A stretch of 13,604 nt of DNA from Nitrososphaerota archaeon (lineage in GTDB: Archaea; Thermoproteota; Nitrososphaeria_A; Caldarchaeales; Wolframiiraptoraceae): assembly GCA_021157985.1 (NCBI GenBank), contig JAGGVM010000036.1, positions 1-13,604 of the forward strand, written 5' to 3'. The stretch's first letter is position 1. Every line of letters begins with the position of its first letter. Shown in pieces: positions 2,617 to 9,801 of this stretch. The notes below the pieces were generated by a model. That model was not told the DNA's origin. It searched no databases and worked only from the letters and a program-made list of their open reading frames with translations. A program made the translations under genes and the position numbers.

Positions 2617-4122
2617 ATGAAACCGCAGCGAAAGGGCGGGCTATATAGGTCGAGGCTCGGAAAGGGATTGGACGAGGATGCTTTACGTTATCTCTCATCG
2701 CTGAGAGACGACGAAGAGATCTTGGTGGACGATATAGAAGGAACCGAGGCCCACGTAATAATGCTCGCAGAGCAAGGAATAATACCGGAACAGGATGCGG
2801 AGAAGATTCTGAGGGTTCTTGAAGAATTGAGGGGGAAAGCGCTCAAAGCCGAACTAGCGCTCGAGGGAGAATTCGAAGATGTCCACGAGTTCATCGAATC
2901 GTTCGTCATAGAAAAGCTGGGAATAGAGGTTGGTGGAAAGCTTCACACTGGGCGGTCTCGAAACGATCAAGTCGCCCTCGACTTGAGGCTAAGCTCGCGG
3001 AGATACCTAATCGAGATCTGGAGGGCAGCGATTGAGCTCGCGGAAGCACTCCTCTCGAAAGCCCGCGAAGTCGGAGACGCGATAATTCTCCACTACACCC
3101 ATCTGCAACCAGCGCAGATAGGTTATCTAGCCCAATACCTGCTCGCTCACTTCTTCCACCTCCTAAGGGACATAGAGCGAATAGAATCTTGTTATCATAG
3201 AGTTAACGTGTCTCCGCTCGGAGCTTGTGCGATCGCTGGATCGACGCTCCCGCTCAACAGGCGTAGGGTCGCAGAGCTTTTAGGATTCGATGGAATAGTC
3301 GAGAACTCCGTTGACGCCGTGAGTTCAAGGGATTTCGCTCTCGAGGCTTTATCGGCCGCAGCCATACTGATGGTTAACCTGAGCAGGATAGCCGAGGACT
3401 TGATTATCTGGTCGTCAAGCGAATTCGGCTACGCAGAGCTTCCGGACGACCTCACCTCGCCGTCGAGCGTCATGCCCCATAAGAAGAACCCCTGCATTCT
3501 AGAGCTTCTAAGAGCTAAAGCCGGGAAGGTGATCGGCCTCCTCACCGCGGCTCTAACCATGATGAAAGGGATTCCCACGGGCTACGACCGAGATCTCCAA
3601 GAAGGCAAACCGGTTCTCTGGAACGCTCTCCAAGAAACACGCGACTCAACCCGGATCCTAGCGAAAGCGATCAAGGCCGTCGAGTTCAAGAGGGATCGGA
3701 TGTTTGATAAAGCGGCTGAGACCTATGCTCCGGCGATCGAGCTCGCGGAATCTCTGATAAAATACTCCGGCTTATCCCTCCGCGAAGCGCACATGCTGGT
3801 GGGAGCGTTCGTCAAGGAGCTCCATGAATCCGGAAAACTTCTGAAAGACGCGGACCTCGGATCCCTGGAGAGGCTTGCCGAATCGATCCTCGGAAAAGAG
3901 CTAAAGTTCCCCGAAACAGTCTTCAAGAAGATAATCGAAGCCCGCGGAGTGGCGGATCTCAGGACGACTGAGGGCAGCTCGAAGTACTCCGAGGTTCAAA
4001 GGCAGCTGGAGCTGGGACAAGAGCGGCTTGAAGAGGTGAGGCGCCGCCTCGAGAAAGCCATGAAAAATCTTTCAAATTCAAGGAGAAAATTCGAAGAATC
4101 TTTATCAAAGTTTTTAAGCTAA
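2617..4122 (+). CDS. argH: argininosuccinate lyase
   Basis: Cleaves argininosuccinate to arginine and fumarate, the last step of arginine synthesis, as a cytoplasmic homotetramer of the fumarase/aspartase superfamily. The superfamily blocks are all visible: HTGRSRNDQ at residues 110-118, YTHLQPAQ at 160-167 with the catalytic-region histidine H162, and the signature loop SSVMPHKKNP at 283-292 with the catalytic serine S284. The usual glycine before the two serines is proline here (PSS). At 501 residues it is somewhat longer than typical bacterial enzymes (about 460). The extra length is a charged, probably coiled-coil C-terminal tail from about residue 455. argG follows after 50 bases but seems to have its own promoter. 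Identification is secure. Confidence 0.96.
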   Translation: MKPQRKGGLYRSRLGKGLDEDALRYLSSLRDDEEILVDDIEGTEAHVIMLAEQGIIPEQDAEKILRVLEELRGKALKAELALEGEFEDVHEFIESFVIEKLGIEVGGKLHTGRSRNDQVALDLRLSSRRYLIEIWRAAIELAEALLSKAREVGDAIILHYTHLQPAQIGYLAQYLLAHFFHLLRDIERIESCYHRVNVSPLGACAIAGSTLPLNRRRVAELLGFDGIVENSVDAVSSRDFALEALSAAAILMVNLSRIAEDLIIWSSSEFGYAELPDDLTSPSSVMPHKKNPCILELLRAKAGKVIGLLTAALTMMKGIPTGYDRDLQEGKPVLWNALQETRDSTRILAKAIKAVEFKRDRMFDKAAETYAPAIELAESLIKYSGLSLREAHMLVGAFVKELHESGKLLKDADLGSLERLAESILGKELKFPETVFKKIIEARGVADLRTTEGSSKYSEVQRQLELGQERLEEVRRRLEKAMKNLSNSRRKFEESLSKFLS

Positions 4123-4130
4123 AAATTAAT

Positions 4131-4176
4131 CCATGTTTATTAGAGGCTTTTCAACATAATACATCGATAAACATGG
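4131..4176 (+). promoter_or_regulatory. argG promoter region with 10-bp inverted repeat spanning the start codon
   Basis: CCATGTTTAT (4131-4140) and ATAAACATGG (4167-4176) are perfect inverted copies, 26 bases apart. The left arm overlaps the best TATA-like box for argG (GTTTATTA, 4135-4142). The right arm contains the argG ATG (4173-4175). No Shine-Dalgarno sequence is present, so the mRNA is likely leaderless or nearly so. The layout could be a repressor operator covering TATA and start site, or an RNA hairpin masking the start codon if transcription begins upstream of 4131. The repeat is seen directly; its function is inferred. Confidence 0.45.
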
Positions 4177-5354
4177 GCGGTAAGGTCGCGCTAGCGTACT
4201 CCGGAGGGCTTGACTCCACTCTCATCTCGATTCTCCTGAAAGAGCATTACGGCTTCGACGAGGTCGTCGGGGTCCTAGTGGACGTCGGCCAGGGCGAGGC
4301 TGAGGTCGAGCTCGCTAAGGAGAGGGCCGAGAAGCTCGGAATAGATCTCCGCTACATCGACGCGAAGGAGGAGTTCGTGAAGAACTACGTCCACAAGTGC
4401 ATCAAGGCGAACGGGAGCTACGAGGGATACCCGGTCGGAACCTCGATGAGCAGGATCCTCATCGGTATGAAGACCGCCGAGATAGCCGTGAAGGAGGGAA
4501 TCGAGGCCGTTGCCCATGGAGCGACCGGGAAAGGGAACGACCAGTTCAGGCTCGAGGTCGCCTTCAAATACGTCGGTCCAGGTCTCAAGGTCATCGCGCC
4601 CGTCCGAGAGCTCAACCTCACGAGAACCCAGGAAGAGGAGATGCTGAAGAAATACGGGATCGAGATAAAGAAGCCTAAGGGGAAGATCGGGGGAGACGTG
4701 AACCTCTGGTCCCACTCGATCGGAAGCGGCCAGTTCAGCGACCTGAAAACCCAGTGTCCGGCCGAGGAATATTATTGGGTGAAGCCTCCGGAGGAGGTGC
4801 CCGACGAGCCGAGGGAGCTGACGATAAAGTTCGAGAAAGGTATTCCAGTCGAGGTCGATGGAATAACCGATCCGGTTAAGATGATAACCGAGCTCAATTA
4901 CATCGCCGGAGAATATGGGATCGGGAAGATAGACATCCTCGAAGACGGCATAATAGGCTTCAAGTCGAGGGAGATCTACGAGGCCCCAGCGGCCACGGTC
5001 CTCCTCGCAACCCACGCCGACTTAGAGCATCTCACCCTCACGAAAGAACAGCTCAGGCTGAAATCCCAGATAGATCACCTCTGGGCCGACATAGTCTACC
5101 ACGGAATGTGGCTCCACCCGCTTAGAAAAGACCTCGACGCCTTCATAGACTCAACCCAGAAATGGGTCAACGGAAAAATAACTATCAAGCTCCAGAAAGG
5201 CGGGTTCGAGATAATCGAGCGGGAATCGCCGGACGCCCTCTTCGCCCCGGAGATAAGGAGCCTGAAATCCGCGGGATTCGATCAAAAAGACTCAACAGGT
5301 GCCGTCAAAATATTCACCCTGCCATTCCAGCTATACAGCAAGAAAGGACGCTGA
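4173..5354 (+). CDS. argG: argininosuccinate synthase
   Basis: Joins citrulline and aspartate with ATP to give argininosuccinate, the substrate of the ArgH encoded just upstream. The N-terminal PP-loop that binds ATP pyrophosphate is SGGLDST at residues 10-16. The citrulline/aspartate region reads YEGYPVGTSMSR (83-94) and HGATGKGNDQFR (115-126), both family hallmarks. The C-terminal synthetase/oligomerisation domain continues to residue 393, the normal length for the family. The ATG at 4173 lacks a Shine-Dalgarno site and lies about 34 bases after a TATA-like box, consistent with an almost leaderless mRNA. The stop is followed by a T-rich stretch (5362-5371). A 246-codon open frame on the opposite strand (5015-4275) is a shadow of this gene. 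Confidence 0.96.
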   Translation: MGGKVALAYSGGLDSTLISILLKEHYGFDEVVGVLVDVGQGEAEVELAKERAEKLGIDLRYIDAKEEFVKNYVHKCIKANGSYEGYPVGTSMSRILIGMKTAEIAVKEGIEAVAHGATGKGNDQFRLEVAFKYVGPGLKVIAPVRELNLTRTQEEEMLKKYGIEIKKPKGKIGGDVNLWSHSIGSGQFSDLKTQCPAEEYYWVKPPEEVPDEPRELTIKFEKGIPVEVDGITDPVKMITELNYIAGEYGIGKIDILEDGIIGFKSREIYEAPAATVLLATHADLEHLTLTKEQLRLKSQIDHLWADIVYHGMWLHPLRKDLDAFIDSTQKWVNGKITIKLQKGGFEIIERESPDALFAPEIRSLKSAGFDQKDSTGAVKIFTLPFQLYSKKGR

Positions 5355-5385: not shown

Positions 5386-5396
5386 TATTTGATATG

Positions 5397-5492
5397 TGGG
5401 CCCGGTGGGCTTCGAACCCACGACCACCCGGTGTCTCACCTTTATCTTCTCGGTTATGAGCCGGGCGCTCCACCAGGCTGAGCTACGGGCCC
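5397..5492 (-). tRNA. tRNA with anticodon CAT (elongator Met or Ile2), intron-containing
   Basis: On the minus strand the acceptor stem GGGCCCG (5492-5486) pairs with CGGGCCC, with discriminator A at 5397. The D stem is GCTC/GAGC, and the anticodon stem CCCGG/CCGGG holds the anticodon CAT at 5458-5456. The T stem GTGGG/CCCAC encloses TTCGAAG. A 22-base intron interrupts the loop at the standard 37/38 site. CCA is not encoded. The anticodon stem lacks the three consecutive G-C pairs (29-31/39-41) of initiators. The gene is therefore either elongator tRNA-Met or tRNA-Ile2, whose C34 is modified to agmatidine by TiaS. I cannot separate these without other tRNAs of the genome. A TATA-like ATTAAAT (5523-5517, minus) lies about 28 bases upstream. 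Confidence 0.93.
5433..5454 (-). other. 22-nt tRNA intron with bulge-helix-bulge motif
   Basis: The intron lies after the base following the anticodon (37/38). The exon CTCA (5460-5457) pairs with TGAG inside the intron to give the central 4-bp helix. It is flanked by 3-base bulges TA^A and AC^A, matching where the archaeal splicing endonuclease cuts. The outer intron helix is weak: only two C-G pairs, CC with GG, close the terminal loop. Removing it restores a standard seven-base anticodon loop. Confidence 0.88.
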
Positions 5493-8046: not shown

Positions 8047-8478
8047 TTGTCAGCCATAGCGTCTAAGCGGTTCTCAGATGAATTATCTTCCCTCGCCGGG
8101 AAAAAGGTGAGGGTATCTCTCTCGAGTGGAGCCTGGTTCGAGGGAAAGGTCGCCGCGTATAATCCAAGCGATTACAGCTTATGGCTCACCGAGGCGAAGG
8201 ATAGAGAAGGCGCCGTCTTCGATAAGGTATTCGTCTCCGGGAAAAGCATAGAATACGTTTTGGTCCTCGAGGTCGGCCCCGATCTCTCGAAGCTCGCTGA
8301 AAGGCTCAGCCGGGTCTTTCCCAACATGGTGAGATACGTCAGAGAAGCCGACGTCATCTTGGTCATGGACCGGATCAGGGTGACGAAGGACGGCGTCGTA
8401 GAGGGAACGGGGCCCGCCGCCGAGCGCGTCAAGAAAGTCTACGAGGAATGGTTGAGAGAAGAGGGGAAACAGGAGTAA
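8047..8478 (+). CDS. Sm-like archaeal protein with C-terminal extension (SmAP3-like)
   Basis: A 143-residue protein. The first ~75 residues form an Sm/Lsm fold: FSDELSSLAGKKVRVSLSSGAWFEGKVAAYNPSDYSLWLTEA matches the Sm1 motif pattern (long glycine-containing beta strands), and KVFVSGKSIEYVLVLE matches Sm2, where the I-R-G/V-S-G-type turn contacts RNA. The remaining ~65 residues (SKLAERLSRVFPNMVRYVREADVILVMDRIRVTKDGVVEGTGPAAERVKKVYEEW) form an alpha/beta extension like that of SmAP3-type archaeal paralogues rather than the ~75-residue SmAP1. Sm proteins form ring oligomers that bind U-rich RNA. The start is TTG 8047, because GGAGGT lies six bases upstream. Role of the extension is unknown. Confidence 0.82.
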   Translation: MSAIASKRFSDELSSLAGKKVRVSLSSGAWFEGKVAAYNPSDYSLWLTEAKDREGAVFDKVFVSGKSIEYVLVLEVGPDLSKLAERLSRVFPNMVRYVREADVILVMDRIRVTKDGVVEGTGPAAERVKKVYEEWLREEGKQE

Positions 8479-8527: not shown

Positions 8528-8545
8528 TTATACTAAAAAGGTGGG

Positions 8546-9508
8546 ATGACGACGGTTTTCACGGGCTTGGATATAAGGGTTGTTGACTTGTTCGCCGGCT
8601 GCGGAGGCTTCAGCTTAGGCTTTGGGAAGCTCGTTAAGGCCGCGATCGAGAACCACCCCCACGTTGTCAAGACCTATATGCATAATTTCCCATGGGTCTC
8701 CGTATTTCCCGAGGACGCTAAGAGGGTGAGCGGGAGAGTTATCCTCGAAACCACGGGGGAAGTGGATATAGTCGTGGGCTGACCCCCATGCGAGCCCTTC
8801 ACGAGCATGAACAAGAAGAGGAAGCTCGATCCGCTCGATAGGCTTCTCAACGACGCTCAGGGCAGGCTCGTCATGGAGTTCATAAGGCTCGTCGACGAGC
8901 TGAGGCCAAAGATATACATCATGGAGAACGTCCCCGATCTCGTAGAAGAGCCGCTCGGAAGGCTCCTTAAACGCTTCTTCGCCAGAATAGGTTATCCAGC
9001 GCACTTCAACTTCGTCGAAGCCCATCGCTACGGCGTCCCATCGAAGAGATACCGCGTCTTCATATCGAATCTCAAGATAGATCTGAGCGGGATGGAGGAG
9101 AGGCCTAAATGCGTTGATGAGGCTCTTAACGGCTTACCTCCCTTCGGCGAGCTCCCGAACCACCTCCCTATCAAGGTAGGTGTGGTCAGGTTCAGGAAGA
9201 TAAGGAAGCTGAAATGGGGTGAGGCGCTCTTCACTTTCAGGGATTCGTCGAATCGGGTGTACCGGAATTGGGTGAGGCTTCATCCAAAAAAGGTCGCGCC
9301 GTCGATCCATGGGAAATCCCGGTTTATTCACCCGCATGAGGACAGGCTCCTAACTGTTCGAGAGCAGGCTAGGCTCATGAGCTTCCCGGATAATCACGTC
9401 TTCTTCGGCGGAATTAACACGCAGTTCGATCAGGTCGGAGAGTCGGTTCCACCTCTACTCGCTAAAAAGCTGGCGAAGTTCGCTCTCAAGGCGCTTAACG
9501 AGCTATAG
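8546..9508 (+). pseudogene. cytosine-C5 DNA methyltransferase interrupted by in-frame TGA in motif IV
   Basis: Read straight through, this is one 320-codon gene for an m5C DNA methyltransferase. Motif I (SAM binding) is DLFAGCGGFSLGF at codons 14-26, with AIENH at 33-37. The catalytic motif IV reads G-stop-P-P-C-E-P-F-T, with the stop (TGA, 8780-8782) at codon 79 and the catalytic cysteine at codon 82. Motif VI is ENV at 127-129, motif VIII is SKRYRV, and motifs IX/X (LTVREQARLMSFP, GESVPPLLAKKLAK) end the protein. The target-recognition stretch is short, about 90 residues. One base change, GGA to TGA, explains the break; no frameshift exists. The next ATG (8807) lies after the catalytic cysteine, so reinitiation would give an inactive piece. 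No restriction enzyme gene is adjacent. ATG 8546 has AGGTG very close upstream; TTG 8567 is an alternative start. Confidence 0.85.
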
Positions 9509-9510
9509 GT

Positions 9511-9801
9511 TCAGCTTTTCTCCTTCTCGGATTTCTCAGCTTCTTCAGGGAGCATTACCTGGATCACTCCATCCTTATCCTTCTTCATCACGACCCTGAT
9601 CTTCCTCGGAGGCTTCTCCGCTCCCCGGCTCCAAATCAAGTGGTTAACGCCCTCCGAGAGCTTCACCTCTTCTCCCTTCATATGCCGCTTGGCGAACTCT
9701 TTCAATATGTTTACAGCTCGCTTGGCTCGCCTAGTTCTGGAGGCTTCATAAGCGTCTCTGAGGGGAACCACGTATACTCTCTCGAGAACGCTTTCGCTCA
9801 T
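9511..9801 (-). CDS. rpl31e: 50S ribosomal protein L31e
   Basis: A 96-residue large-subunit ribosomal protein of the archaeal/eukaryotic L31e family, located near the polypeptide exit tunnel. The core ERVYVVPLRDAYEASRTRRAKRAVNILKEFAKRHMK, then VNHLIWSRGAEKPPRKIRVVMKKDKDGVIQVMLPE, matches the family from end to end, including the LIWSRG and PPRKIRV blocks. The acidic/lysine tail is variable. The ATG at 9801 has GGAGGG seven bases upstream (9814-9809) and lies 12 bases after the L39e stop, so the two are co-transcribed. Its stop is only two bases from the stop of the convergent methyltransferase. Confidence 0.96.
   Translation of the reverse strand: MSESVLERVYVVPLRDAYEASRTRRAKRAVNILKEFAKRHMKGEEVKLSEGVNHLIWSRGAEKPPRKIRVVMKKDKDGVIQVMLPEEAEKSEKEKS

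Follow-up and report, generated by a model that had tools for sequence, protein, structure and literature searches.

The window, the whole stretch of 13,604 bases of archaeal DNA that was analysed, carries on its plus strand a DNA methyltransferase frame (8546–9508) located between genes for an Lsm-family protein and ribosomal protein L31e (Table 1). The frame has one internal stop only, a TGA that takes the place of the second residue of the GGPPC motif and sits between VVG and PPCEPFTSMN (context VVG*PPCEPFTSMNKK, the asterisk marking the stop). The rest of the frame is open and without a frameshift; the nearest upstream in-frame stop is a TAA at 8534, the terminal stop is a TAG at 9506, and reading through the TGA with the codon taken as a residue gives a protein of 320 aa. 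From knowledge of the family, we take the Cys of PPC to be the catalytic Cys. There is no in-frame ATG, GTG, or TTG between the TGA and the Cys codon, and the first ATG, at 8807, lies past it, so the catalytic PPC motif, which the TGA precedes, is absent from either predicted product. A sequence-only reading of this DNA had described a single TGA at 8780–8782 in an otherwise open frame, followed by an ATG beyond the catalytic Cys, and on both points, coordinates included, it was correct. The annotated ATG at 8546 is perhaps not the true start: P0001, the closest homologue among the matches listed, begins MDLDIRVVD, and in most close homologues the first residue corresponds to the TTG at 8567 or to a codon adjoining it (window 8546–8569).

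Table 1. The interrupted methyltransferase gene and its neighbours, in window coordinates.
Feature	Coordinates	Strand	Evidence
Neighbour, Lsm-family protein with Lsm_C domain	8047..8478	+	PF14894; next to the methyltransferase gene in 10 of the 22 family genomes
Upstream piece, SAM-binding end; 78 codons then stop, ending ahead of the catalytic Cys	8546..8782	+	ORF; TIGR00675 28.6 bits alone
In-frame TGA, second residue of GGPPC	8780..8782	+	All 14 full family copies read as DNA have a Gly codon
Remaining frame, PPC to TAG; a start at ATG 8807 predicts a 233-aa product that lacks the catalytic Cys	8783..9508	+	ORF 8807–9508; TIGR00675 83.1 bits alone, below the cut-off
Neighbour, ribosomal protein L31e	9511..9801	-	PF01198; next to the methyltransferase gene in 12 of the 22 family genomes

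If the TGA is taken as an amino acid, the product matches PF00145 (E 5.3e-46, 158 bits, cut-off 22) and scores 139.4 bits with TIGR00675, above its cut-off of 100.65; each half alone stays below the latter cut-off. The profile level of a C5-cytosine DNA methyltransferase is reached only by the read-through protein, and these scores, compared with those of the halves, indicate that both halves are methyltransferase and not so by chance. Read through, the gene shares the whole fold and the motif order of the C5-cytosine DNA methyltransferases (PF00145, TIGR00675), but it differs from them in that its frame is cut at the catalytic motif and leaves no product with the catalytic Cys. Solved relatives by sequence include DNMT1, M.HaeIII, and M.HhaI. 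No restriction enzyme partner was found among the nine window proteins scanned by profile; such a partner is presumably absent, and the gene is probably a stand-alone, orphan-type methyltransferase. Orphan methyltransferases are described as common, and some are thought to be regulatory (PMC4752239). The conserved neighbours of the methyltransferase are housekeeping genes: Lsm, L31e, and PDCD5 recur in relatives, with L31e adjoining it in G000, G001, G002, G003, G005, G007, G008, G010, G011, G013, G014, and G016.

A methyltransferase match was present in 21 of the 61 genomes searched, the window's own included, and in 16 of the 22 genomes of the window's family (query P0048, a metagenome homologue). 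The comparison of the codon with other genomes of the lineage, which the sequence-only reading had proposed, gave a Gly codon at the site and no stop inside the gene in all 14 of the other full family copies read as DNA; a TAG reported for the G011 copy is its second aligned codon, before the first conserved residues. The earlier claim of a conserved Gly just before PPC also holds at the protein level, since 46 of 48 aligned family-level homologues cover the residue and have Gly (44), Ala (1), or Ser (1). Because four more distant copies of the same phylum have Ser at the site, the Gly is, judged from these alignments, conserved within the family but not absolutely. The protein database search returned 5,774 matches, the best 120 of which supply the figures given here. 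P0001, the top protein match among those listed, is 90% identical and intact, and the sources of the close protein matches are named as Thaumarchaeota, Nitrososphaeria, and Nitrososphaerota archaea, the group to which the window would accordingly belong. A search for a second copy of the same species, from which the window's own-genome records were possibly excluded, gave five loci, none of the same species, and scanning viral contigs for an exact match to a pattern from such a copy gave 0. The Lsm protein of the window (8047–8475; P0123) is listed in the protein database on a contig of 8,811 bases rather than one of the window's length, and going by that listing another assembly of the organism may exist.

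Six of the 22 family genomes lack a methyltransferase match. Three of these (G004, G018, and G020) keep L31e with enough flanking DNA to show that the methyltransferase is absent from its usual place: the Lsm–L31e gap of G018 is 131 bases with no methyltransferase match between, the next 1.5 kb beside L31e in G004 holds other frames, one of them transporter-like by eye, and the 1.5 kb beside L31e in G020 is without a methyltransferase match, Lsm lying ~10 kb off. G006 has neither L31e nor Lsm, so absence there is uninformative, and in the genus of G019 and G021 none of the six genomes here has a methyltransferase next to L31e. In G009 (L020) the copy is decayed: it has two frame changes around GGPPC and one TAG, and much of its C-terminal half is missing. 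Because the gene is absent beside L31e in three genomes and decayed in a fourth, it is, by this genome comparison, dispensable in the family. The decay in sister genomes that the sequence-only reading had named as the mark of an ordinary pseudogene is thus seen in part, in G009 and in the three genomes without the gene.

Truncated copies also occur among metagenome proteins. P0121 is an 80-aa protein that is out of frame directly after GGP, and P0048 (233 aa, on an 8,333-base contig) starts at the Met equivalent to 8807; both are known from protein records alone, and sequencing error is possible for both. Searching with the 78-residue piece, which could return only short N-terminal pieces, gave two matches, neither ending at the stop residue: P0121 leaves the frame just past it, and P0122 continues beyond. 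Since the breaks differ in kind (substitution, frameshifts, deletion) and this search returns only N-terminal pieces, we regard the several broken copies at or near GGPPC as a curious coincidence and do not read them as a shared mechanism. In G009 and P0121 the frame is lost no more than a few codons from GGPPC, where C runs occur, possibly a slippage-prone spot.

The age of the lesion was gauged from separate fits to codon positions 1+2 and to position 3 in an alignment of 15 copies, in which 308 of the 332 codon columns were retained. The window tip has lengths of 0.074 (positions 1+2) and 1.157 (position 3), and their ratio of 0.064 is the lowest of the 15 (others 0.078–0.277), a coarse comparison given that third positions are close to saturated. 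Of changes in the window gene, about 2.1% would make a stop (transitions weighted four-fold), and the absence of a second stop puts the lesion at less than roughly 0.15 neutral substitutions per site (95%). Based on the lowest codon-position ratio and the lack of a second stop, the lesion appears, at this coarse resolution, to be recent and constraint not to have been relaxed. Of the 136 positions with conservation of at least 95% among the other homologues, the window departs at 2, and full-length copies depart at 0 to 6. The residues unique to the window are, in contrast, more numerous than those unique to P0001 (14–17 versus 5–9 over five outgroups, chi-square 2.1–4.3; 18 versus 7 when polarised by majority, with 9 ambiguous). 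This excess in protein rate, which stands without a neighbour-gene control as the gene beside P0001 was not recognisable in the neighbour list, fits relaxed constraint weakly and points in the direction opposite to the codon-position result.

A recent nonsense mutation of a dispensable methyltransferase gene is the best reading of the locus, and we consider it probable. What is observed comprises the stop, the intact remainder, the intact relatives, the absence or decay of the gene in some of them, and TGA as a usual terminator (see below). As in a nonsense pseudogene, a premature stop occurs where orthologues are intact and the stop is not conserved, the codon being Gly in 14 of 14. Ordinary prokaryotic nonsense pseudogenes show the same single premature stop, intact relatives, and loss or decay elsewhere in the family; the window gene differs from them in having no further decay yet, which makes a young lesion indistinguishable from a sequencing error. 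Full constraint apart from the stop also counts against a mutation, as it is equally expected from an assembly error. Among the readings listed earlier from the sequence, a very recent lesion and a sequencing error both fit; phase variation is not indicated and readthrough is unsupported.

The second-ranked explanation is an error made in sequencing or assembly, or a consensus that took up a rare strain variant, with the organism's own gene intact and the enzyme an ordinary one. The otherwise undecayed gene, whose two departures from conserved positions are within the range of intact copies, is in keeping with it, as is the lowest codon-position ratio, and the bin is fragmented (158 contigs) and 76.1% complete. 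The loss or decay of the gene in relatives speaks against it, and so does a comparison of the window contig and 40 others (41 of 158 contigs; 221,732 of 810,631 bases) with 391,208 bases of G002, a genome of the same genus. The G002 frames yielded 72 homologous stretches without overlap, in which 18,392 residues are aligned, and the test is limited to these. They contain no frame breaks and seven interior stops: the methyltransferase TGA, two just before a start Met, and four in one 51%-identity frame that we judge to be antisense. The methyltransferase TGA is thus, in our judgment, the only true in-frame stop in the 72 stretches, and on this basis we judge the bin not to be riddled with errors; the stop count is nevertheless a weak test for error, because only ~2% of random base changes give a stop in the methyltransferase gene. 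Weighing these points, we regard an error or variant as unlikely, though well short of negligible, and infer that the T is real in the organism rather than only in its assembly.

The reverse comparison (62 stretches, 17,002 residues) showed 14 stops and two breaks. Both breaks and one stop fall in the G002 copy of the transporter gene that comes first in the window; the other stops are judged to be antisense or upstream of starts. That copy (L093, G002:C5:40001-60000, ~2987–4885, minus strand, corresponding to 324–2231 of the window) is either a pseudogene or affected by assembly errors.

Were UGA decoded here, by programmed readthrough or a suppressor tRNA, some full-length methyltransferase would be made, and a frame that continues and is constrained on both sides of the stop would be consistent with this. 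We consider it highly improbable, and still less probable its narrower form, programmed readthrough in this single gene with UGA remaining a normal stop, which would give a small and perhaps regulated amount of the full enzyme. Among 58 stretches of the window genome whose end lies within 15 codons of that of the relative, the genes end in TAG (22), TAA (21), or TGA (15), the hand-check for antisense covering only the four TGA-ended window genes; because 15 of these 58 genes end in TGA, UGA is an ordinary terminator in this genome. The four in the window are argG, the TIGR00300 gene, L31e, and the ABC ATPase, all of which terminate in TGA as had been read from the sequence, and the argument then drawn from them against a genome-wide code change is strengthened by the wider count and by the 72 stretches, in which the search for other conserved-position TGAs that had been suggested found none judged true. 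Genome-wide recoding of UGA was accordingly rejected. Selenocysteine and a suppressor tRNA gained no support either: the suggested search for a UGA-decoding tRNA, made in a bin 76.1% complete, gave five tRNA-Sec matches, none over the cut-off and all ordinary tRNAs by ARAGORN, and no ARAGORN call of a TCA anticodon among 29 tRNA matches, five loci being without a call. Since no full relative among the 14 read as DNA has a stop at the codon and no decoding tRNA was found in this bin (76% complete), the option of real UGA readthrough, also raised earlier, is unsupported.

Other apparent signs of recoding have ordinary explanations. The in-gene TGAs that searches reported for Lsm in G017 and for L31e in G019 are the terminal stops of those genes, and a "tRNA-Pyl (cta)" call (L124) is by eye a tRNA-Arg(TCT) with a short intron, in a genome where TAG ends 22 of 58 end-matched genes. 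Four tRNA genes received four-base anticodons from ARAGORN, probably due to introns; the tRNA genes that seem to bear introns, from long, four-base, or odd anticodon calls, are those at 5396–5492 of the window and at L118, L125, L129, L130, L131, and L124. A screen of more than 250,000 genomes (PMC8629427) describes UGA as Gly in Absconditabacteria and Gracilibacteria, upholds five new codes, all involving arginine codons, and reports nine archaeal stop codons inferred as sense, as candidates. The window gene likewise has UGA where its relatives have Gly, but compared with the code described there it is one instance, in an archaeon, in a genome where UGA ends genes regularly and no TCA anticodon was called.

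It is likewise very unlikely that the gene still works in split or truncated form, with one piece or the pair serving, for example, in DNA binding. Two-subunit m5C methyltransferases exist (M.AquI, EcoHK31I), and P0048 begins at just the equivalent Met. However, the PPC motif is in neither piece and no start codon lies between the stop and the Cys, P0048 is a protein record whose upstream DNA is unread, and the other broken copies differ in kind, having frameshifts and a deletion. Full length is moreover the rule, 43 of the best 48 matches (those with at least 60% identity among the matches listed) being 311–323 aa and five shorter. A phase-variation-like off state, another option raised from the sequence, is not indicated, since the frame is kept, as by a substitution and not by a change in repeat length.

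Under a recent nonsense mutation, a Nitrososphaeria-type archaeon would have had here the gene of a stand-alone C5-cytosine DNA methyltransferase, and one very recent base substitution in the assembled organism or strain would have made the second codon of GGPPC a stop. Translation would end after 78 residues, and the downstream piece from the ATG at 8807, if translated at all, would lack the catalytic Cys; both pieces are presumably inactive, and the enzyme would be lost. The family would tolerate this, the gene being gone or decayed in other lineages. The locus carries a caution, in that a single in-frame stop in a metagenome bin is no evidence of recoding, and readthrough of the stop would be needed for it to bear on the biology of the genetic code. 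Taken at face value, the locus matters little: one lineage would have lost a stand-alone DNA methyltransferase that is also absent or decayed elsewhere in its family.
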